Notes under the pieces: generated by a model
What the model was told of the DNA's origin: nothing
Database searches by the model: none
The model's input: the letters and a program-made list of their open reading frames with translations, nothing else
Assembly: GCA_036939755.1 (NCBI GenBank)
Contig: JALLAZ010001587.1
Span: 1-14,504 of the forward strand
DNA: 14,504 nucleotides
Source of the DNA: Stephanodiscus triporus
Taxonomy: Eukaryota; Bacillariophyta; Thalassiosirophyceae; Thalassiosirales; Thalassiosiraceae
Reading direction: 5' to 3'
Position numbers and translations under genes: made by a program
Shown: piece after piece, positions 2,729 to 14,504 of the stretch
How positions within the stretch are numbered: position 1 is the first letter of the stretch
How the letters are laid out: each line of letters starts with the position of its first letter

Positions 2729-4480
2729 CTATTGCCGAGTGGACACTGCCGATGGAAGCCGAGGTCCGCCCAAAGCCGTTCGATGCAATTGCGAATCCAT
2801 CAGCACCATTGCCACCAACGAGAAGATAGTGAAAACTACCACGCACGCAATCATGAGAAGTAGGAGGTTCAGTTGGACGTGCATCTGTTCTATGATGACC
2901 GAAACGGCTATCATGATCATGTAGCAAAATGCGAAACCAGCCATGACTGTTCCTGTGCCCAAACCTTTTGTTTGTGACTGCCATTGCTGTTGGGTCCCAT
3001 CGGATTCTTCTGCATTATCCGCCAGTGGCACTTCAGGGGTCTCTCCTTCCTCTTTTGGACTTGGCTTGGCGGTGTATTGTGGGGGAATGCCGTTCTCCCC
3101 TCCACTGCAAGTATTAGCGACAGATATCATGCCCCATCCCACAAATGCAGTGAATAGAACTAATAGGTACAAAATGGAAGGGATGCGAATGATCTCGGTG
3201 ATAAAGAGAGGATTGAATGACCCGTCCTCTCTTGAAAGTGCAGTAGCGTACACCGCCAAAACAATTGCAAAATATACCACCGGTGGACCCAACCGCACTA
3301 GATAGCGAACCCACTGTGACTTGGGAACCATAGCGAACGTTTCCGTTGATGCGTCATTCCCAATTCGTTGCGCTCTCGCGACTTCGACGAATCCCAGGTA
3401 GTACGGAATGCCATGAATGGACGTGAAGGCAAAGATCCACAAAAAACCGAATAGGAACATCGCCCATCCTCCCTCCTGCCTCATTTGGATCGCGACGACC
3501 GCTCCGTGAATGGCGACCCAAGTTTCCAGCACGAGCTTCCAATACCCGTTCACGTGTATCGGCGTGAATATGAGAGATTGTTGTATCAACAACGCGCCCG
3601 TGTGCAAGAAGCCCATGACGTGACCGACGGTCGGCTCCATGGGGTGATACCAAAGCGTGTAGATGGTCGCCCACGCGAAGGCATAGCCGTGATACTTGCG
3701 CACGAGCTCGATGGGTCTCGCCGGCAATCTCCAGGAACATTTGCCGGTGTCATCGTCGGGCACGGCCGGCCATCCAAGGAACAGTCCCCGGTGTTTGTAT
3801 TCCATAAGCAATATCATCACGAGGAGCATAATGACGGATCCCTGTGAGCTCGACTCGGTCACGTCCTGCGCGGTGGCGTCGTATGTGACGTGAGTCTGCA
3901 GCAAGTGAACCAAGTAGGCGACGAGATTGACGACGAACGACCAAACGTTGTACCAACGCAGATTGCCGTCGTATCGCACGTCGTAAGCATGCTCGCGTTG
4001 GGCCTTGTATATCAGTCCCCAAATGGCGCACTGGTGTACGACGTAGCACGTCCACACGACTGCGCGCGTAGTCGTCGTCGCCCTACGGACCGCGCACGAC
4101 ATGGTGTACGGCTCCGGCGGGTTCGTGACATCGTCGCAGTGCGCATCGCTGTCGGACGGTCGGAGCTTCCAATAATACCACGTCGACGACGCCGATGGAT
4201 AATTCCTCGATGCGTAGATGGCATCCAATTCCGCGGTTTCGTTATACTCGTTCGGCTCCGGCCAGAAGCGAGACGGATCCTCGACGGCGTAGAGGGCGAA
4301 GCTCCCCCCCGTCGTCGTCGTCGTCGTCGCAGTCGCAGTCGCAGTCGCAGTCGCAGTCGTGACGTTCCATCCCCGCGCGATCCCGATGCCCATGAGGAGC
4401 GGGCCGCAGACCACGAGGAGCGTCGCGATGGCCAACGACCAGGCGACGCCCCCCTTGATGGTCGTGCCGGGCGAGGACAT
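2729..4480 (-). CDS. polytopic membrane protein of unknown function, histidine-rich core
   Basis: The predicted protein has 583 residues and about 11-12 hydrophobic segments, near residues 13-36, 138-158, 178-195, 215-227, 265-280, 285-308, 317-332, 338-356, 396-414, 430-455, 508-530 and 537-562. The best-conserved-looking part is the middle, where His residues sit in or beside membrane segments: KYHGYAF (262-268), WYHPMEPTVGH (277-287), FTPIHVNGYW (305-314), VAIHGA (322-327) and SIHGIPYY (354-361). Such His pairs can bind haem or metal, but I cannot assign a family. A lumenal or extracellular loop (40-135) contains an Ala-Thr repeat. A hydrophilic acidic loop (456-505) precedes the last two helices. 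The start is the first ATG of the frame, with A at -3; a longer version needs a non-ATG start. The gene is divergent from the FAS1 gene. Confidence 0.75.
   Translation of the reverse strand: MSSPGTTIKGGVAWSLAIATLLVVCGPLLMGIGIARGWNVTTATATATATATTTTTTGGSFALYAVEDPSRFWPEPNEYNETAELDAIYASRNYPSASSTWYYWKLRPSDSDAHCDDVTNPPEPYTMSCAVRRATTTTRAVVWTCYVVHQCAIWGLIYKAQREHAYDVRYDGNLRWYNVWSFVVNLVAYLVHLLQTHVTYDATAQDVTESSSQGSVIMLLVMILLMEYKHRGLFLGWPAVPDDDTGKCSWRLPARPIELVRKYHGYAFAWATIYTLWYHPMEPTVGHVMGFLHTGALLIQQSLIFTPIHVNGYWKLVLETWVAIHGAVVAIQMRQEGGWAMFLFGFLWIFAFTSIHGIPYYLGFVEVARAQRIGNDASTETFAMVPKSQWVRYLVRLGPPVVYFAIVLAVYATALSREDGSFNPLFITEIIRIPSILYLLVLFTAFVGWGMISVANTCSGGENGIPPQYTAKPSPKEEGETPEVPLADNAEESDGTQQQWQSQTKGLGTGTVMAGFAFCYMIMIAVSVIIEQMHVQLNLLLLMIACVVVFTIFSLVAMVLMDSQLHRTALGGPRLPSAVSTRQ
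4311..4359. repeat. (GTC)n plus (AGTCGC)n microsatellite inside the membrane-protein gene
   Basis: GTC units at 4311-4329 run into nearly five AGTCGC hexamers at 4331-4359. On the minus strand they encode the Ala-Thr repeat and Thr run after the first membrane segment. The units are in phase (length multiples of 3), so copy number can vary without breaking the frame. Confidence 0.85.
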
Positions 4481-4776
4481 AATATTATTATTCGACGACG
4501 GCGATTGGATGGATGGGAGTCCGGCTCGGACTGGGAAATTCCACCCCGGGGAAGGAACCGACGACGGACAGGAATCCTGATCACAAAAAATAATAATAAT
4601 AATCCCCCCACACAGAATCGCCAGCGCCCAACCAACGCCACACACACAAAAACATCTATTTTTACGTACTTCATTCACCGCATCGTCGAGATCCGAGGCG
4701 AGGAAAGGAGAGAGAGAGAGAGAGAGGGAGAGAGAGTGTCCGAGGGAGAGTTCCTCTTCCGAGATTAAAAAAAACG
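4481..4776. promoter_or_regulatory. divergent promoter region with GA-repeat tract
   Basis: This 296-bp region separates the start codons of the minus-strand membrane-protein gene and the plus-strand FAS1 gene, so it must carry both promoters and 5' UTRs. A purine tract of GA dinucleotides lies at 4707-4737. An AT-rich stretch, including a TAATAATAATAA-like block, sits at about 4584-4603. An A-run precedes the FAS1 ATG. No classical TATA box is convincing. Confidence 0.5.
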
Positions 4777-5613
4777 ATGATGACGTCGTCGACGACGCCG
4801 GGACGGACGATCAGCCTCGCCTCCTTCGCCCTCCCCTTCCCCCCCCCCCCTTTCAGCCCGCGACGACTCCGACCCCCGACTACGTCTTCGTCTTCTTCGT
4901 CCTTGTCGTTGACGTCGTCGTCGGCGTTGTTCGAGTCCTCCCCCCCCTCCCATTCTCGCGATCGCGCCGAGAGTTACCTGTCCGAATCGTACCCGCGATT
5001 CTGCGCCCTGCTCAGCGCGTGTCCCGCGGCACTGGACCGCATGCGCGAGTCGACGTCGGGGTACGCGGTGTTCGCGCCGTCCGAGTCCGCGTTCGACGGG
5101 CTCGGCGACGAGCGACTCGGCCTGCTCGACGCCGCGATCGAGCGCTGCGTCGGCGGCGGCGGTGGAGGAGGAGGAGGAGGAGGGACGACGACGACGACGA
5201 CGAACGCGATGACGGCGGCGCTGTTATCGACCGTGGCGGAATATCACATGGTCTCGGCGCCCATGACGTCCGAGATCATGACCGCCTACGGCGTAGTCAC
5301 CACGAGCGTCGGGGAGATGCCCGTCGAGGTGGCCGCGGACGGGACCATGTACGTGAACGGGGTGAGGGTCGTTAGGAGTTATCAATTCGAGGAGAGGTCG
5401 ATTGTCGAATATCGCGACGGCAGGGGAAATTCGCTCGGGACGGTGGAGGAGGGGGCGGGGGGTCGAGGTGGTGGTGCTGCTGCTGGCGGCGGCGGCGGGA
5501 GGGTGTGCGTGGTGCACGAGGTGGACGGACTGCTATGTCCCGACGAGCTTTGGCGGGTCATGTACGACCAAGTATTCCCATCGGCCGCCGAGGCGCGGCA
5601 TGGCGCGATGTAG
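4777..5613 (+). CDS. FAS1 (fasciclin-like) domain protein
   Basis: A single FAS1 domain occupies about residues 72-262 of 278. The H1-like motif YAVFAPSESAF is at 96-106, the conserved EYHMVS (Tyr-His) at 154-159, a VNGVRVV strand at 193-199, and the domain-end signature VHEVDGLLCPDELW at 246-259. FAS1 domains mediate adhesion at the cell surface or act in organelles. Two low-complexity inserts interrupt the fold: Gly12-Thr6 (125-142), and Gly-rich 225-241. The N-terminus (1-55) is rich in Ser, Thr and Pro with few acidic residues, and contains a SLASFALPF stretch loosely like the ASAF plastid-import motif of diatoms. Export or plastid targeting is therefore possible but not shown. The start is the first of two consecutive ATGs, preceded by an A-run. 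Confidence 0.8.
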   Translation: MMTSSTTPGRTISLASFALPFPPPPFSPRRLRPPTTSSSSSSLSLTSSSALFESSPPSHSRDRAESYLSESYPRFCALLSACPAALDRMRESTSGYAVFAPSESAFDGLGDERLGLLDAAIERCVGGGGGGGGGGGTTTTTTNAMTAALLSTVAEYHMVSAPMTSEIMTAYGVVTTSVGEMPVEVAADGTMYVNGVRVVRSYQFEERSIVEYRDGRGNSLGTVEEGAGGRGGGAAAGGGGGRVCVVHEVDGLLCPDELWRVMYDQVFPSAAEARHGAM

Positions 5614-6189
5614 AGGGTTAACGCGTCCTCGCGTTTCGACCCCTCCTCACTTGAAACAACACGAAGAAGATACTTATGCCATATCTGTTCCGGAAACGAA
5701 CGATGAAAAAATGCGTAAAAAAAGGGGGGGGGGGTGCTGTCAAGGGGCGGGGGATGAGTGTGTGGAAAGGAGAAGCAGTCCGGAACAGGGGGCGGGGGGA
5801 GGGAGGAGGGGGGGACACGTCACGTAGTCATCGTGCAGAGATACCCGTATGAATCTCCACGCATCAATTGGAGGGTGAATCGAAAAAAAGAGTGCATGCC
5901 GGTATAGTACTCCGCATAGAAATGCCGCCATCCCATCGGCGGGGGAATGAATTTGGAATCATCCCTTCAATGTATGCCTGAAAATATCGCCCCCCATCTT
6001 CTTGCTAAATAAATCAATTAATATCGCTGCTATTGGTATTGATTGACGGGAGTACACATGATGCCGAAATAAGGCTTTGCATACACTCTCTCTTTTGACA
6101 TTAAAAAAAACTCCCGCGTGAGTAGGCCGCGATGGCGACAAGGCTGCTGGGCATCAAGAACGTTCGATCGATGCGCATTCGGGCAGGCG
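5614..6189. other. spacer between the FAS1 gene and the retroelement
   Basis: No convincing gene. It holds the FAS1 3' UTR, A- and G-homopolymers around 5710-5735, a G-rich purine block at 5740-5818, and an AT-rich part (about 5990-6110) with AATAAA near 6007. The element-derived frame is technically open back to 6122, but the similarity to the second element copy stops sharply at 6190, so 6122-6189 is flanking DNA. Confidence 0.55.
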
Positions 6190-6244
6190 CTCCGCACCTT
6201 TTACACAACACATCCACGACCAACTCAACCACCGCTGGGATTTC
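6190..6244 (+). repeat. direct repeat, left copy (55 bp, at the RT start)
   Basis: All 55 bases are identical to 14450-14504. The base before each copy differs (G at 6189, C at 14449). Both copies encode the same peptide in the open Pol frame. Confidence 0.98.
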
Positions 6245-8299
6245 TCCACAGTCGCCGAATACCTCCGGAAAGCCCCGCCCAACAAAATTGTGGAATCTGG
6301 CGACGTCCTCAACTATGTCAGTCGAGCAATGCGTCTCACCCGCGGCACGCTCCTCAAGCAAGATGACTGGTCTGATTGGCAAGATTCGGAATACCTCCAG
6401 CTCGATCAATATGACGCTCAGGGTATGTTTGGCGACCCAGTTGTAATGTCCGACAAGGATGCCATTTTTCACCTCGTCTGGACGTATGCAATAAAAGCAC
6501 TCGACGGACGCAAGAAGGCACGTTGCGTTTGCGACGGCTCTACACGGTCGGGTATGGTTCGTATACTTGCGGAAACTTATGCAAATTGCGTCGACCAAAC
6601 CAGCTCCCGTCTCTTCTATGCAATATGCGCGGCAGAGAATATGCTTATCTTTGGCGCCGACGTCTCCAACGCGTTTGCCGAAGCCCCACCCCCAAAGCAA
6701 GGCTTCTTCATTCGCCCTGACAAGGCTTTTCATGAATGGTGGGTCCAACACAAGAAACGCCCCCCCATCCCAGATGGCTATGTTATACCTATACTCTCAG
6801 CAATGCAAGGCCACCCTGAATCCCCCAGATTATGGGAGAAACATGCCGACTCTATCCTCCGCGAACTCGGGCTAGAGCCTACAGTGCACGAACCATGCCT
6901 CTATTCGGGTACCATCAACGGCACTCGCGTCCTACTCAAACGACAAGTAGACGACTTTGCCATCGCTGCCCCTGATGCTAACACTGCCAACATCCTACTG
7001 GACATGATCGACGATAAGCTTAAAATCCCAGTTAAACGTCAAGGCTACCTCGATATGTACAACGGAATCAACGTCCTCCAAACCCGACATTACATCAAGA
7101 TCTCTGTCCGCTCGTTCGTGGATAAAGTCTTCGAACATCACCTTACCACATGGATGAAATCAACGTACCCTAGTCCGGCTCGGTCTACTCCACTCCCCAC
7201 CGACGCTGCGTTCGTGAAGAAGTTTAACGCCACATCTGGCAATCCAGACCCAAAAATACAACAAAAGCTTGCCAAAACGATGCAACTTAATTATCGGTCA
7301 GGCGTAGGCGAACTTATTTGGGCTATGACTACCTGTCGCCCAGACCTCGCTTTCACCAGCGTCAAACTCTCACAGTCTAATTCTTGCCCACACGAAATCC
7401 ATTACCACGGCCTCAAACATGCTCTGAAATTCCTATACAACTCAAAGGACGACGGTCTCTACTTCTGGCGCACAACACCACGTCTCGAACTCCAAGAAGG
7501 TCCTCTTCCACCTATCAACAGCAATCGACAAGATATTCTCCTTGATGATCGCCCGCAGTTCAATGCCTCCACAGTACACGCTTATGCCGACTCAGACTGG
7601 GCTACGTGTGTCAAGACTCGCCGTTCGTTCGCTGGTACTTGTATTCGACTAGCCGGTGGCACAATAGCATACAAATGTAAATTCCAACCAACAGTCGCAG
7701 GGTCTTCCACTGAGGCCGAATTTATGGCCGCCTACGACACAGGCAAGATGATACTGTTCGTCAGAAGCATATTATGGGACTTACACGTTCCACAGGAGGC
7801 CGCAACTGTCCTGTTTGAAGACAACGACGGATGCACGGCAATGGGTAATGCCCAGAAACCCACTACACGCACCCGGCACATCGACATCAAGTATTTCTCC
7901 CTTTGCGAATGGATAGAACGCGATCTCATGCTCCTGGAACGCATCGATACTTCCATCAACATGTCCGACCACATGACGAAAAGCCTACAAACAACACTTT
8001 TCCATCGCCATGCGGACTTCATCCTTGGTCACGTCCCACCGGCGTATTCTCCTGTATATGACTCCATCATCGGGACATACACCAATCACAATGTGGACAT
8101 CAACCACTATATTCCGCCCTCCTTCACTACCCCCACTACCGCGGCGGCTGCTCGCGTTCATGCTCCCATCTTGTCCGATTACCAACACAATCCTTGGCTT
8201 GGTCCTATCGCGCATGGGCAGTACAATCCACTCTTTTCTTCATCTTTACCATCTCTTTGTTCACGATATACGCTACATAGTGGATTGTGGGGGGGGTGA
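6190..8299 (+). CDS. pol: copia Pol C-terminal part: reverse transcriptase and RNase H (5' truncated)
   Basis: The frame reads TCC at 6191 onward to the TGA at 8297. Numbering from 6290 as residue 1, the RT domain includes KALDGRKKARCVCDGS (69-84), the catalytic Asp in ADVSNAF (D124), QGHPESPRLWEKH (173-185) and the catalytic pair in QVDDFAIA (D221, D222). RNase H has AYADSDW (D434), SSTEAEFMAA (472-481), EDNDGCTAMGNA (510-521) and RTRHIDIKYF (527-536), followed by the typical DHMTKSL end (560-566). An unusual tail of about 100 residues follows. This part makes and matures the element cDNA in the virus-like particle. No frameshift or stop is present. The upstream Pol domains are missing at the left because similarity ends at 6190; they exist in the second copy at 11856-14504. 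Confidence 0.93.
8137..8154 (+). repeat. 18-bp direct repeat encoding TAAAAR, copy in the Pol tail
   Basis: These 18 bases are identical to 13997-14014. The frames agree, so both encode TAAAARV: here in the tail after RNase H, there in the linker after integrase. Confidence 0.9.
8286..8296 (+). other. putative polypurine tract
   Basis: TTG followed by T and eight G residues (G-run 8289-8296) sits directly before TGAC at 8297. LTR retrotransposons prime plus-strand DNA from a purine tract touching the 3' LTR, and LTRs usually begin TG, so 8297 is the natural LTR start. If so, the TGA stop of Pol is made by the first three LTR bases. This is an inference because no second LTR copy is present to align. 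Confidence 0.55.
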
Positions 8300-8567
8300 C
8301 AGCGGATAGGCTCGTAGATACGTAAATTAGCTTACTCTTTCTCCTATCCTCTCCATGCTGGGACGATGGGATTCTGAGAGGTTACGAGTCCATTAACACC
8401 AAAAATTTTCCTCGCCTTCGGCTCGGCCCAGATCATCCGCCGACCTTCCCCACCCCCACCCCTCCGTGCTGTGATTGGTCGGCCCCCAGGCTGAGCACTT
8501 ACGGCAAGTCCCTTTGCCATACTCCAGTATCTACGATCACCACCAATATCTTTGCTTCCCCAACAAC
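8297..8567 (+). repeat. LTR plus Gag leader (single copy, right end unresolved)
   Basis: The 271 bp between the Pol stop and the Gag ATG must contain the LTR and the primer-binding site. Features seen: TG at the left end, an AT-rich part with pyrimidine runs (about 8321-8355), AAAAATTTT at 8401-8409, and a small GCCTTCGGC hairpin at 8414-8422. No CA end followed by a convincing tRNA-complementary site could be fixed. The promoter and polyadenylation signals of the element should lie here. Confidence 0.5.
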
Positions 8568-11500
8568 ATGTCCACCAAGAAAAATATGTCTGACGACAAC
8601 GACATCACGGCGACGGCGGCGGCTCTCCTCAAACCCCCCCCCGAACATCATCGCATGCTACGACGCTCCATGGGCCCCCCCCCTCCCGCTCTGACACACG
8701 AGAACCCTCCCCCCCCCGTCGGTGACGGTGGTGCCACAAACCCCAAACCACCCGACGAAACCCCTACTCAACCTCACGAACACTCCCAGGACACCCAGAG
8801 CGGCGGTAGCCCCTCCCTCTTGTCGTTAGACGATATTGCTGGATTCACGGTTGCCACGGCGACACGCGGCCACCGCACTACCCCTCCCCACGAGGCGGTC
8901 GTGCGCGCGGGGATCCCTTCACCCCCCCCCACACGAAACAGCTTCGCGGCGCTTCGCACGACCTCCCCCACACCAACAGACACCTCTGACAACATCCCGG
9001 ATGATCCCCCGCGGACGACAACACCCCCGATGAATCTACCACCCACCGACGGCGTCCCAGACCCTCACAAACGAGTCTCGGAACCCCGCGGCTTCCCCGA
9101 ACCCCGCGGCTTCCTCGCCACGTTCCTCGAAACATGGCCCGAAGATCAAGTCACCGATGACACCTCCCGTCGGATTTGGGATTCTTTCCGCCAGAGCCAC
9201 TCCGATGCCGACGCTATCTACAGCTCCCTCGATTACCGTCAACAGGATATCACCCGGGCAAATAATAAATTTTGGTCCGACACGAACGCTCGTCTAGACG
9301 AGAGCGAACGCGCAGTCAAGTCCACCCTCACGACGATATCCGAACGCTTTGAGTCGTCGGCCGAGACGCTTCGAGCCCTGGAACAGTTGTCCGGTGTTGT
9401 TGCATCCTCGGTGTCCAACTTGGCGGATATCACCACCCGTCATGAATCTTCGTTGAAATCTATTTTCGATCGCTTGGAGGCCCAGAGTAACATCCTTCGG
9501 ACGATAACCCGACACAACGAGGCCCGCGACGCTCGCGTTAACACCATGGAAGGGCGCGTGACCGCCATGGAAGGGGACATCGCCTCAGTGAACGAATCTG
9601 TTACCACCGTCGACGCCAAACTGCTTGAAGTCGATGCCAAGTTGATCGGCCTTCGATCTACTTCGGAATCGACGGCATCCACCCTACGACTCGACGTCAA
9701 CGACCTACGGGCCCGTATCATCCCCGACCTCCGCCGAGACCTCCGCACAGAGATCCAGGCATCTGCCAGTGCGACCCCGAACGCCATCGATACCACCGTC
9801 CAGGAAACTTTGGCGCGTCTCCCTGTCAACTCGCCCCAACGACATCGGGCCGCGACGGCTGACGCTGATGTCCAGGTTGGCGGCGCGGACGTGGGCGGTG
9901 CGGGCGTGGATCGTACCACGACAGAGGCGCCTCTACCCCACGACACGCACGCTGACGACACGCGCGCTGCCACCGAAACACGTGCCACCACCCCCGAGGT
10001 GGCCACGGCTGCATCTGACAGGTCCGACGTTCGTGACATTGGAGACAATCGAGATATCGGCAGGTCCGACAATAGTGTTTACGGGCACATTCGGGAATAT
10101 GGTCCCTCTGCGGCCTCACGCATTGGATTCTACCCGTCCCGGTCCCCTCCCCATGGGACATCATACAGGGATGACACCCGTCACGTTACCCCTGGCTGTC
10201 CCGACAGATACCGTCCATCTCCCCTCACGACTGATGACATTCAAAAAGGGGGTCTGATCCTGTCCCCTCATGCTAGTGATCGCGAACGGCTTGCCCGCAC
10301 CCTCAAAACAAGTCGTTTCGATATGGCTGCCCTGGCTCATTCAGACTACCATGGTGGTACCGACGGTGTGCTGGACCTCTCGATCAGCTTCATCCACGAA
10401 TGTGGGTACGACTCTATCTCTGTCGAAGCCTCCGAGGACGTACTTCTCTGCTATAATGACATCATTTTGGTCCATCGGAAGGTTGTTGCAGGCTGGACGA
10501 ACTACCGAACTGGTCGCTCTGGTCCTACAGTGGAGTACATCATTGAAAAAGCTCTTGTGAACTTCCCCAAACTCCGCACCCTGGACGCTCGGGCAGCCGT
10601 CGACTTCTATGACAAGCTCCAAAAACTCTCCGCCGGCTACCTCCTTCCGCTCATGCCTTTCGATGCCATCAAACTGTCGAACAACTTCGAGGGCCTCTGC
10701 CCACCCGGACTTGGGACCTTACGGTACGCGGAGGTCGGCTCCGCACTCATGGATATCCTCCCACGCCTCCTCCCGACTACCGAGTCCGAAATCACCTCCG
10801 CCATTGCTACTGTCGGCTTCGAATCTAACAATGGCTACGATCTCCTCTGGCGGATTCTTGAGCTCACAGTTCCGGGATTCGATCCCACTGTGCCCATCTT
10901 GCCCCCGACGTGGCACCGCGACTCCGACGTGTTCGAATTCTGTCATGCCCACCTCCTGTACTTCCGACTACAAGCTAAGAAGAACAACCACTTTGATGCC
11001 CGCACCCGCACCTCAATATTCCTGCGAGCCATCGCGGATTCGGAATACGCTGACATTGTCACGCTCTTACAGGCCCAGGTCAATTCATTCCGCCACATCG
11101 ACGGCGATGACGGATATCTTCCTCATCACCTGCGTCTCAGCGGCATCGCGACCTTGATCAATACCAACGCCAAAGCCCGCGTTCGAGATTTTGCAACCCC
11201 GCGAGCACACAGGGCCCTCGGTTCGGGCCCTGACTGGGACATGGCGTTCGACTCGGCCTACAATTGGGATGCGGTTGACGACGAGGAGCTTCCCTTTTGC
11301 CACGTCCAAGGGTACACCCCCCGCATACACCGTTTGGATCAGGGACGTGATCGGGCTGAACGCGGCGGGATACGCGACCGGGATAGGGATCGTGGGGCTC
11401 ATAGGATGCGCCGGGAAAATGATACCCGCCGAGACTTTGGCCCTCGCGACCGCGGTCAACCCCGACTGGGAGTCCGCAATCAATTCGGTGGGCGTAATGG

Positions 11501-11855
11501 TGATGCCACCCAGGGTCGTTCTCTCCGCCCGGACCAGCGACGTCGCCCTTTCCTCCACGGTGTCATATGCGCAGCATGCAAACGTACCGGGCACGAGGCC
11601 ACTAGCTGCGACATGCTTGCGATAGCTCTTTTCGTGGACCGCCACAAGGAACGACTTTCGGAAAACGAAAAATCGGAAATAGAGGCGGCTTGGGTTGCGC
11701 GCTGGAAGGATAAAATTGGCCAACCAACCCGCACCCCCCGACAGGTGATGCGCGCTTACTGCGAAGCGTTGGACATCTCGGCAGATCATCTCGTCGAAGC
11801 GATGGATTGGGATTGTTGGCCCGCCTCTGACCCTGATGACGTCCCCGATGAATGA
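8568..11855 (+). CDS. gag: Gag polyprotein with coiled coil and CCHC zinc knuckle
   Basis: The protein has 1095 residues from the ATG at 8568 (A at -3; a 31-codon upstream extension lacks ATG). Residues 1-190 are Pro/Thr-rich and disordered in appearance. About 220-400 has heptad-like spacing of Leu, Val and Ile and is predicted coiled coil. Residues 425-550 are again low-complexity. About 555-890 is the folded, capsid-like part, with VFEFCHAHLLYFRLQAKK (788-805) resembling the C-terminal half of copia Gag. About 920-990 is Arg/Asp/Gly-rich and probably binds RNA. A zinc knuckle C-x2-C-x4-H-x4-C uses C1001, C1004, H1009 and C1014 (nucleocapsid). It forms the particle shell and packages element RNA. 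It is far longer than usual copia Gag. It ends at a TGA that is in frame with Pol. Confidence 0.9.
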   Translation: MSTKKNMSDDNDITATAAALLKPPPEHHRMLRRSMGPPPPALTHENPPPPVGDGGATNPKPPDETPTQPHEHSQDTQSGGSPSLLSLDDIAGFTVATATRGHRTTPPHEAVVRAGIPSPPPTRNSFAALRTTSPTPTDTSDNIPDDPPRTTTPPMNLPPTDGVPDPHKRVSEPRGFPEPRGFLATFLETWPEDQVTDDTSRRIWDSFRQSHSDADAIYSSLDYRQQDITRANNKFWSDTNARLDESERAVKSTLTTISERFESSAETLRALEQLSGVVASSVSNLADITTRHESSLKSIFDRLEAQSNILRTITRHNEARDARVNTMEGRVTAMEGDIASVNESVTTVDAKLLEVDAKLIGLRSTSESTASTLRLDVNDLRARIIPDLRRDLRTEIQASASATPNAIDTTVQETLARLPVNSPQRHRAATADADVQVGGADVGGAGVDRTTTEAPLPHDTHADDTRAATETRATTPEVATAASDRSDVRDIGDNRDIGRSDNSVYGHIREYGPSAASRIGFYPSRSPPHGTSYRDDTRHVTPGCPDRYRPSPLTTDDIQKGGLILSPHASDRERLARTLKTSRFDMAALAHSDYHGGTDGVLDLSISFIHECGYDSISVEASEDVLLCYNDIILVHRKVVAGWTNYRTGRSGPTVEYIIEKALVNFPKLRTLDARAAVDFYDKLQKLSAGYLLPLMPFDAIKLSNNFEGLCPPGLGTLRYAEVGSALMDILPRLLPTTESEITSAIATVGFESNNGYDLLWRILELTVPGFDPTVPILPPTWHRDSDVFEFCHAHLLYFRLQAKKNNHFDARTRTSIFLRAIADSEYADIVTLLQAQVNSFRHIDGDDGYLPHHLRLSGIATLINTNAKARVRDFATPRAHRALGSGPDWDMAFDSAYNWDAVDDEELPFCHVQGYTPRIHRLDQGRDRAERGGIRDRDRDRGAHRMRRENDTRRDFGPRDRGQPRLGVRNQFGGRNGDATQGRSLRPDQRRRPFLHGVICAACKRTGHEATSCDMLAIALFVDRHKERLSENEKSEIEAAWVARWKDKIGQPTRTPRQVMRAYCEALDISADHLVEAMDWDCWPASDPDDVPDE
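9079..9114 (+). repeat. 18-bp tandem duplication in gag
   Basis: Two adjacent 18-bp units (9079-9096 and 9097-9114) differ at one base. They encode the doubled peptide EPRGFPEPRGF (Gag residues 172-182). The unit length is a multiple of 3, so the frame is kept. It is a recent local duplication. Confidence 0.9.
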
Positions 11856-11898
11856 CTAGGATACGGTCCACCTCGATGCGTCGGGCTGGACCATATTC
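11853..11898 (+). promoter_or_regulatory. putative stop-codon readthrough signal between gag and pol
   Basis: The gag stop TGA is followed by CTAG. Positions 11859-11876 then pair with 11881-11898 around a TGCG loop (11877-11880): 16 of 18 positions pair, including two G-U, with single mismatches at 11864/11893 and 11871/11886. The strongest block, GGTCCA with TGGACC, starts 9 nt after the stop. UGA followed by CUA, with a 3' stem-loop after about 8 nt, is a known readthrough class in tobra-, furo- and alphaviruses. Pol continues in the same frame. The hairpin and frame are seen in the sequence; function is inferred. Confidence 0.8.
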
Positions 11899-14504
11899 AT
11901 CCTCCCCTCGGGGAACCAGCGCCGGTCTTACAGCACGCCCACGCCCCATCCGTCTCGTATGCGTTGGCACCAACCTTGGCCGACCCATCCGTGCTCGCTC
12001 CCAGTTCTCACGTTGGCCATTCCACGAATGATCTCCCTGCTACACATGCCTCCGATCTCCCTCCGGCTGAACCTCCTCCCGACACCCCTGCCGGCTCCCT
12101 AATAGCTGAAATCCTCCACAACCATACCCGGCGTTGCTTGCCAATACATCCGTTCGAGTTTCCCCTCAACCCTCATCCCACCCCACAAACTCATGGCCAC
12201 TCTATCCTCACTGCGGCCACCATCCCCGAGTTCCCGCCGGTTATGGACAGCATCACCCGCGTTGTCGGGGCACCCCGTGTGTTCGGCATCCGAAACGACA
12301 GTCGATCTTTCGTCCAAGTGCGGAAAACCTCCGCCTCCCTAATCGATGGCGGCGCCAACATCTGCCTCACGGGTGACCTGGATATTCTGGTTGACGTCGT
12401 AGAGATTCCACCCCTGCCAATTTCCGTGGCGGTCACCGGCGACGTATCTACCTTGGATGATTCATGTACCCGTCGGGGATACCTTCCTTTGGCCCTATCT
12501 GACGGCTCTACGCATTGGCAGTTGTGCTTCTATTGCAAAAACGCCGTCGAGACGATCATATCTCCCCAGGCGATTCTAGCATCCAGCGATATATTTGCCT
12601 CCTGGACGCAGACGGGTTTCAAAGATGGTCGCCCGGGTCAAATACGTTTCGATAGTCATGACGGCCTCATCACCATGCACCTCGATCTTGAATTTCGCGA
12701 TGGTCTATACTACTGCCCAACAGACGTTCTCACGGTCGACCGGTCGCCCGTCCGACGACATCCACCGCCAATGGTACACCGCCTTAGCATGCCCCCTGCC
12801 CCAAATACCGCTCGTCGGCCGTCCCGCTTCGCCCCGACGTCGAAACCCAAACAGGTCGAATCCGAAGTGTGGCTCCTCCGGCTCGGCTCTCCTGGTGTTC
12901 ATCAACTGGACGTCCTGCCAGGCAATGCCACGGGACTACCCTCGGTTTTCGAGTACCACCCGTTCCGGTTCATCGACTTTAAGGAGCAGGCACGGACCCG
13001 GAAACAGGCCGCACAACGTTCGGCTCTACGTACTACGGAAAGGAAGCGGCGTTTCTACATGGATTATGGTTTTATGCGTGCTTCCACGTCGGACTACTCC
13101 CAACCGAAGAAGAGCACAGATCGGGTTGTCAAATCTTATGACGGATTTACATCTTACCTTCTAATTATCGACGAGGCCTCGCGGTATGTATGGGTATTCC
13201 TCACGGCCACCAAGGATCCTCCGCTCGACATCGTCACTGAATTCCTCCGACATCATGGCCACAAGGACGGAGGTTGCATCCGCACGGACCAGGGCGGAGA
13301 ACTTGCTCGCTCCCTTGCCTTTCAAGATCTTCTCCTCCGTGAATTCCATTATACTCTCGAACCAACCGGTGCAGACAGCCCCTCCCAGAACGGCGCGGTC
13401 GAGACATACAACGATAAGTTTGCTGTGCGTGCTCGCACGCTCCTGTTTGGTTCGGGCCTTCCGGCTCAGTACTGGTCCGCTGCACTGGTTCACTCGGTTT
13501 ATTTGCATAATCGGCTGGTTCACTCGGAGACGAAGACAACACCATTCGAAGGGTACTACGGCATCAAACCAGATCTCGCATCCCTCAAACTGTTCGGCTC
13601 CAGAGTATGCGTGAAACGCACTGGAGATAGACGCAGCAAACTTGACCGGCACGACTTCAGTGGCATTTTCCTTGGCTACGCTTCGACAGACCACAACATC
13701 CTTTACCTCGACGTTAACTCCGGTGTTGTAAAACGCAGCCATCACGCTCAGTTTGATGAGGCCTGGTACCTACAGCCATCTCGTCCGCCGGCGGCACAAC
13801 TCCTGTACGACCTTGGCCTCGAGGCTGATGACGATACCCCCACCGCAGATGCAGTCGACGACATTGGCATCACACTCCTCCCTGCCCCTTGGCCGCCGCT
13901 CCCGCCATCTACGGTGAAAACAACTTGCTGGAGTGTGCCAACATCATGTCGGAATACTCCCCTACCCCTTCGCGAGACTGCGTTGCCTCGTCAGATTACC
14001 GCGGCGGCTGCTCGAGTCCGGTCCAACCCAGATGCCCCGCCCCCAACAGCATCAGATATCGTCTCGGAATATAACATCGACCGAAATGATATGGCGCTAA
14101 TATATATGTCCCCCGATCCGTACCACGAGGCCTTTGAAGAGGTACTCGACCTTCGGCGATTCGACTTCAGTCGACACAGAACGGCTGGCCTCTGTCTCGC
14201 CCACGTCAACGGACGACTGATTCTTGGTGGTATGGCACCTGGTACCCCCGCGGCTAAGATACCTCGATGGCGATCACGGATCAAGGGAGCCTGGCTCATA
14301 AAAATAGGCCACGCAACAGTTTCTTCCATTCCAGATGCTCAAGCTGCATTCGACGCACTTGCCACAGCTAATCAATCATCCGTCACTCTCCTCTTCTCAC
14401 ATCCGGAAATACGCCAGGATATCTCCCACAACGGCCTCCATATTATATCCTCCGCACCTTTTACACAACACATCCACGACCAACTCAACCACCGCTGGGA
14501 TTTC
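11856..14504 (+). CDS. pol: copia Pol N-terminal part: protease, integrase, PDZ-like domain, RT start (cut by window end)
   Basis: Frame 11856-14504 is open for 883 codons without a stop and continues the Gag frame after its UGA. Counting from 11856, residues 1-130 are a Pro-rich linker. The aspartic protease has LIDGGANICLTGD with D164. A region with CFYCKNAVETIISPQAI and FRDGLYYC, typical of the segment before integrase, follows. The integrase core has catalytic D403 (FYMDYGF), D478 (RTDQGGE) and E516 (NGAVE), giving D-x74-D-x37-E, followed by LFGSRVCVK and GIFLGYA of the C-terminal part. Residues about 770-852 form a PDZ-like domain. The RT start matches 6190-6244. If readthrough were not used, the first ATG in the frame is at 12243, before the protease. 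Together the two parts would give about 1570 Pol residues. The N-terminal HHCC zinc finger of integrase is not visible. Confidence 0.92.
13997..14014 (+). repeat. 18-bp direct repeat encoding TAAAAR, copy in the integrase/RT linker
   Basis: Identical to 8137-8154 and in the same translational phase (Pol residue 715 onward). Confidence 0.9.
14450..14504 (+). repeat. direct repeat, right copy (55 bp) ending at the window edge
   Basis: Identical to 6190-6244 over its whole length up to the last base of the window. Similarity begins exactly at 14450, and the upstream bases are unrelated to those before 6190. Confidence 0.98.

Follow-up and report, generated by a model that had tools for sequence, protein, structure and literature searches.

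A conserved UGA-CUA context and a covarying hairpin suggest stop codon readthrough at the gag-pol junction of a copia-type element family in the diatom Stephanodiscus triporus

In a 14,504-nt stretch of the Stephanodiscus triporus genome (contig JALLAZ010001587.1; hereafter, the window), the gag and pol genes of a mobile element lie in the same reading frame and are separated by a single UGA stop codon, which raises the question of how Pol is expressed. A reading of the sequence alone had proposed that this UGA is a programmed readthrough signal assisted by a 3' hairpin. We recovered its description of the junction. The UGA lies at positions 11853 to 11855 of the forward strand, both sides of it are open in one frame, and it is followed directly by CUA-G (11856 to 11859), giving the UGA-CUA-G context of type II readthrough. 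Upstream, the Gag frame runs for 1126 codons from stop to stop; counted from its first ATG at 8568, the Gag ORF comprises 1095 codons ending in the UGA (8568 to 11855) and has relatives elsewhere in the genome. It had no Pfam match in a domain search of the window's ORFs. By eye, we recognized a CX2CX4HX4C motif at 11568 to 11609 that had no profile match and that we take to be the CCHC zinc knuckle of Gag. Downstream, the Pol ORF (11856 to 14504) stays open for 883 codons until the contig ends, and 129 codons precede its first in-frame ATG, the same two figures as originally given. This ORF comprises a linker, a protease-like motif (DGGA at 12345, found by eye), an integrase-like part, and a retroviral SH3-like domain (PF25597, residues 568 to 635). 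A Pfam search found no match to the integrase core family in the window's first Pol part.

A reverse transcriptase/RNase H part belonging to this element family lies upstream of gag, also on the forward strand (6190 to 8299; PF07727, RVT_2, in 6188 to 8299, E = 4e-16). The presence of RVT_2 and the SH3-like domain in the polymerase parts indicates that the element is copia-type. Because the contig ends inside pol and the reverse transcriptase-RNase H part precedes gag, the window does not contain one complete colinear element. In addition, an exact 55-nt repeat joins positions 6190 to 6244 and 14450 to 14504, the second copy ending at the last base of the contig. Together with the upstream position of the reverse transcriptase part, this suggests a collapsed repeat or a break in k-mer limited assembly more than a genuine tandem arrangement. 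On other contigs, relatives have gag followed by a full-length pol frame in the expected order. The gag and pol frames are both open in C158 (1026 and 1583 codons, respectively), C967 (1003 and 1601), C739 (1101 and 1587), and C1314 (940 and 1499). In these four contigs and in C89 and C1001, the Pol frame is 1499 to 1601 codons long and RVT_2 falls inside it; in all of them except C1001, we also recorded a match to the window's first Pol part 5' of RVT_2 in that single frame. Between the two parts of the element in the window is an LTR-like stretch (approximately 8296 to 8379, forward strand), which is common to matches 3' of pol and matches 5' of gag on other contigs. C89 and C158 have LTR-like matches on both sides. 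Genome-wide, we detected 100 RVT_2 matches at E ≤ 0.001, some of them below the family cut-off.

We used the last 317 codons of the window's gag to search the genome for other copies of the family and obtained matches in 31 contigs, which is a lower bound. Three of these (C1285, C366, and C448) matched gag but had no junction in the stretch fetched. In all 28 contigs that still have a junction, the stop is UGA followed by C (24 CUA, 3 CUC, and 1 CCA), so the copies offer no example of a sense codon at this position, and the UAG characteristic of murine leukaemia virus is absent. The 28 junctions were all drawn from a single genome. Aligned pieces of Gag are about 34 to 81% identical to the window, indicating that the copies are not the product of recent duplication. 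We aligned 26 of the junctions over 46 columns starting at the UGA, without gaps (22 CUA, 3 CUC, and 1 CCA). The two junctions outside this alignment are those of C792, which has a 1-nt deletion in the hairpin, and C981, in which an insertion splits the hairpin. Both read UGA-CUA, and C981 retains UGA-CUA-G despite its insertion. On a tree of the 26 elements built from polymerase sequence, with the signal's own codons excluded, columns U1, G2, A3, and C4 experienced no parsimony changes.

The proposed hairpin was described as two 18-nt arms. Locally, the window does fold as described, with 16 pairs in blocks of 5, 6, and 5, two single mismatches, and a UGCG loop. The 81-nt fold at the junction has a z-score of -2.61 (2 of 200 shuffles were as good), and the 40-nt hairpin of the window has a predicted energy of -19.0 kcal/mol (z = -3.57). 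Across copies, comparative support spans columns 10 to 43 of the 46-nt element, corresponding to positions 11862 to 11895. The alignment, consensus fold, and covariation tests define a 5' arm at 11862 to 11876 and a 3' arm at 11881 to 11895, and the local fold and alignment place the UGCG apical loop at 11877 to 11880. The outer three pairs of the original description (11859 to 11861 with 11896 to 11898) are unsupported across copies, pairing no better than shuffled columns. The strongest stem block had been placed 9 nt after the stop, and the best-conserved block, GRUC/GAYC, begins exactly there; the distance is 6 nt if the UAY/AUA pairs are included.

Considering all 26 rows, 85.1% of the 390 cells in the 15-pair core (columns 10 to 24 with 29 to 43) are paired, and this value drops to 31.3 to 48.5% when the 3' partners are slid by 1 to 3 columns. 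We counted 32 cells in the core in which both partners have changed, compared to 11.9 ± 2.8 after shuffling, and none of 500 shuffles reached 32. Because kinship among the copies inflates such counts, we used a second null in which the changes inferred for each column were moved to random branches of the tree. This tree-aware null yielded 8.3 ± 3.8 double-change cells, and none of 2,000 runs reached the observed value. The covariation score was likewise never reached in 2,000 runs, and the percentage paired was reached in 2. These data indicate that the arms of the hairpin covary, as the sequence-only reading had suggested checking. The whole-structure shuffle test included five measures, two of which did not exceed the shuffles. 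Six pairs had a double change, a value reached in 162 of 500 shuffles, and there were 21 pair types, a value reached in 273 of 500.

Given the alignment alone, RNAalifold predicted 10 pairs, all within the core and 5 of them with double changes. Rows folded singly had a mean z-score of -2.95, with 24 of 26 below -1; the two weak folders, with z-scores above -1, were C89 and C1271. Support is uneven along the stem. Pairs 17-36, 18-35, 19-34, and 12-41 are unpaired in 8 to 16 of the 26 rows, and on the tree the most strongly covarying pair, 14-39, underwent changes in both partners only about two times. A test of independent pairs on the tree had just three pairs to work with and therefore could not reach significance. 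In contrast to the type II signals discussed below, the apical half of the hairpin is nearly invariant. Columns 21 to 33 read UCGAUGCGUYGG in most rows, and A24, U29, and G31 are the same in every row.

The hairpin overlaps a conserved peptide, LGYDxSRCVGxDH, and protein-level constraint on this peptide may account for part of the nucleotide conservation. Three results allowed us to tell RNA constraint and protein constraint apart. The Asp codon at position 12 is GAC in all 8 Asp rows that have G at column 14 and GAU in all 11 that have A, so this silent choice follows the pairing partner. All 19 rows with Arg at codon 7 use CGA there (19 of all 26 rows), whereas CGA makes up 17% of the Arg codons after pol codon 14 in seven copies. 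Finally, the first 13 codons of pol have the lowest pS of 41 windows along the gene (0.32 across six copies); the next lowest values are 0.45, 0.46, and 0.46.

We also examined the frame between the UGA and the first in-frame AUG of Pol, which lies 13 to 180 codons downstream, at varied places, in 18 copies. In 12 copies that had been chosen beforehand as open, this stretch (1,069 codons in total) contains no in-frame stops, compared to 23 and 35 stops in the other two frames. An in-frame stop occurs in one (C1271) of the six remaining copies, leaving the stretch open in 17 of 18 overall. Based on these sequences, the Pol extension looks to be translated from the UGA rather than from the later AUG. 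Two other AUGs recur at the junction, both out of Pol's frame: one at -1, overlapping the stop (A-UGA), and one at +23. Of 14 copies, 12 carry the first and 12 the second. In the 26-row alignment, the +23 AUG, which lies in the hairpin loop (11876 to 11878 of the window), is found in 21 rows.

A pattern describing the signal had 22 exact matches in 21.65 Mb, all at the family's junctions; since the pattern was derived from the family, this demonstrates specificity, not discovery. Allowing one mismatch added four more junctions and one match elsewhere (C55), and allowing up to three mismatches resulted in 69 matches, compared to 21 for the reversed pattern. A covariance model matched C792, which lies outside the model (E = 1e-10), and gave a weak match (E = 0.49) to the hairpin of C981, which is split; it had no match at E ≤ 1 in five stretches of other copia elements (L076 to L080). 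The model also matched, less strongly, the reverse strand of the hairpins in the window and in C792, as expected of a hairpin. We detected no relatives of the family in viral contigs (searched with two single proteins, a 43-place pattern, and alignment A4) or in prokaryote contigs (alignment A4), both of which are unlikely places for algal elements. The genome itself encodes a silicon transporter (PF03842, E = 8.9e-228) and has 27 matches to chlorophyll a/b-binding proteins (PF00504), the profile of a photosynthetic silica user and probably of a diatom; silicon transporters occur in other silica-using algae too.

The position and frame of the stop, its conservation, the covarying hairpin, the synonymous constraint, and the open extension frame all support readthrough at the sequence level. 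On this evidence, we consider it highly probable that this Ty1/copia-type family expresses Pol by programmed, type II-like readthrough of the gag UGA, as originally proposed. Under this mechanism, UGA-CUA-G (less often UGA-CUC-G) and the 15-pair hairpin, with its base 6 to 9 nt downstream, would allow readthrough. Most ribosomes would terminate at the UGA to produce Gag, and a fraction would insert an amino acid there and go on into pol. Readthrough itself, its efficiency, the residue inserted, and the resulting control of the Gag:Gag-Pol ratio are inferred from the sequence.

We also weighed other explanations of the junction. Pol could have its own initiation, by an internal promoter at the junction or re-initiation at a downstream AUG, in which case the UGA just ends Gag. 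There is a precedent, in that the junction of the Candida element Tca2 reportedly has minor promoter activity in a yeast reporter, and the frequent A-UGA overlap speaks in its favor, but neither that AUG nor the one at +23 is in frame with Pol. Moreover, the varying position of the first in-frame AUG, 13 to 180 codons downstream, is at odds with such a start, the intervening frame is open in 17 of 18 copies though own initiation needs no open frame there, and none of 16 matches to the LTR/leader region in the genome falls in a gag-pol junction. The identity of UGA-CUA and the covarying hairpin would also be left unexplained, and we therefore regard separate initiation as improbable. Splicing, which some copia elements are said to use, could remove the UGA and join gag to pol in the mRNA; given that the sequence after the UGA is open in frame and conserved both as peptide and as RNA structure, unlike the start of an intron, we find this very hard to sustain.

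Two further explanations concern the decoding of the UGA itself. A hairpin directly after a UGA resembles selenocysteine redefinition elements, and selenoproteins are known in diatoms, so the UGA might be decoded as selenocysteine. No SECIS family was among the eight Rfam matches at E ≤ 1 in the window, a mobile element would need a SECIS of its own, and both the CUA context and the distance to the hairpin match ordinary readthrough; the odds of selenocysteine decoding seem to us very slim. Alternatively, the UGA could be a chance stop in a decaying copy or a codon reassigned in the host. Additional stops do occur in many copies of the family, but the same UGA at 28 of 28 junctions rejects a chance stop in this copy. 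As a control for the use of UGA as a sense codon, we examined 15 chaperonin domain matches on nine contigs, 13 of which have no internal stop. Stop-free matches on C363, C861, C897, C7, C66, and C320 cover at least 435 of 490 positions. Two of three chaperonin pieces on C1303 contain UGA, most likely because of introns or decay. The stop-free matches rule out reassignment, consistent with the earlier argument against an altered genetic code, and the combined probability of chance and reassignment is next to nothing.

The programmed readthrough that we favor has close counterparts among viruses. Type II signals, which consist of UGA-CGG or UGA-CUA and a 3' stem-loop, are found in alphaviruses, furo-, pomo-, and tobraviruses, and a coltivirus, and the UGA-CUA-G context also occurs in some human genes. 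The copia family resembles them in having UGA-CUA followed by G, a stable stem about 8 nt downstream (6 to 9 nt in our alignment) with compensatory changes, and an in-frame coding extension. It differs in being at the gag-pol junction of a diatom copia element, in the near invariance of the apical half, and in having CUC at 3 and CCA at 1 of the 28 junctions. Gag-Pol production by readthrough is well established in some retroviruses. In murine leukaemia virus, Gag-Pol likewise arises by readthrough of a stop that has an RNA structure about 8 nt 3' of it, but the stop is UAG and the structure a pseudoknot, compared to UGA-CUA and a hairpin here (we considered hairpin folding only). To our knowledge, gag-pol readthrough in copia elements has so far been weakly supported. 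The closest case is Tca2/pCal of Candida albicans, a Ty1/copia element that reportedly has gag-UGA-pol and a predicted pseudoknot; its junction is said not to have directed readthrough in yeast reporters. Both are copia elements in which a UGA interrupts a frame shared by gag and pol, with a structure 3' of it; the structure is reportedly a pseudoknot in Tca2, whereas the diatom family combines UGA-CUA with a simple covarying hairpin. The family also resembles the CoDi elements, copia lineages of diatoms, in being made up of copia elements in a diatom genome.

This family supplies many diverged natural versions of a single signal within one host. Together with their covariation, they make it possible to test directly, in an algal lineage, the rules that govern UGA-CUA-plus-hairpin readthrough. 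A further and rather doubtful idea is that the near-invariant apical half of the hairpin (columns 21 to 33) is more than a roadblock and serves as the docking site of a trans factor that switches readthrough, with Gag's nucleocapsid or a host protein as the candidate factor. If true, a copia lineage would regulate its Gag-Pol output at a stop codon.

The same genome holds copia elements with a different gag-pol layout, which can be used for comparison. In at least two of these, C1310 and C991, gag and pol form a single ORF. The earlier statement that copia elements normally use one ORF, a frameshift, or splicing overlooks the precedent of a UGA-split gag and pol in Tca2/pCal. C1253 has one long frame of 1,706 codons. 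In L079 (contig C1196), pol is in a different frame from a 455-codon putative gag, and the two overlap by about 40 nt. In L080 (contig C290), gag-like and pol sequences share one frame and are split by UGA-UGG. We make no case for C290 as a second lineage of readthrough elements. Apart from fragments on C688, the one match to its gag end was C1128, a close gag relative whose sequence after the stop is unrelated.

Outside the element, the window contains a host ORF for a fasciclin-domain protein (4603 to 5613, forward strand), a 693-codon membrane-protein-like host ORF that has no Pfam match (2729 to 4810, reverse strand), and CGA/GAC trinucleotide repeats (1231 to 1963). The repeats gave below-threshold matches to miRNA families on both strands, most likely low-complexity artefacts. 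Within the family, three decayed copies (L018, L033, and L035, on contigs C141, C1067, and C1050, respectively) have UGA at codon 7, a second stop inside the signal. In L025 (contig C209), the minus strand carries two copies of the signal at a distance of 68 nt, and the second copy reads UGA-CCA-G and has an altered loop.
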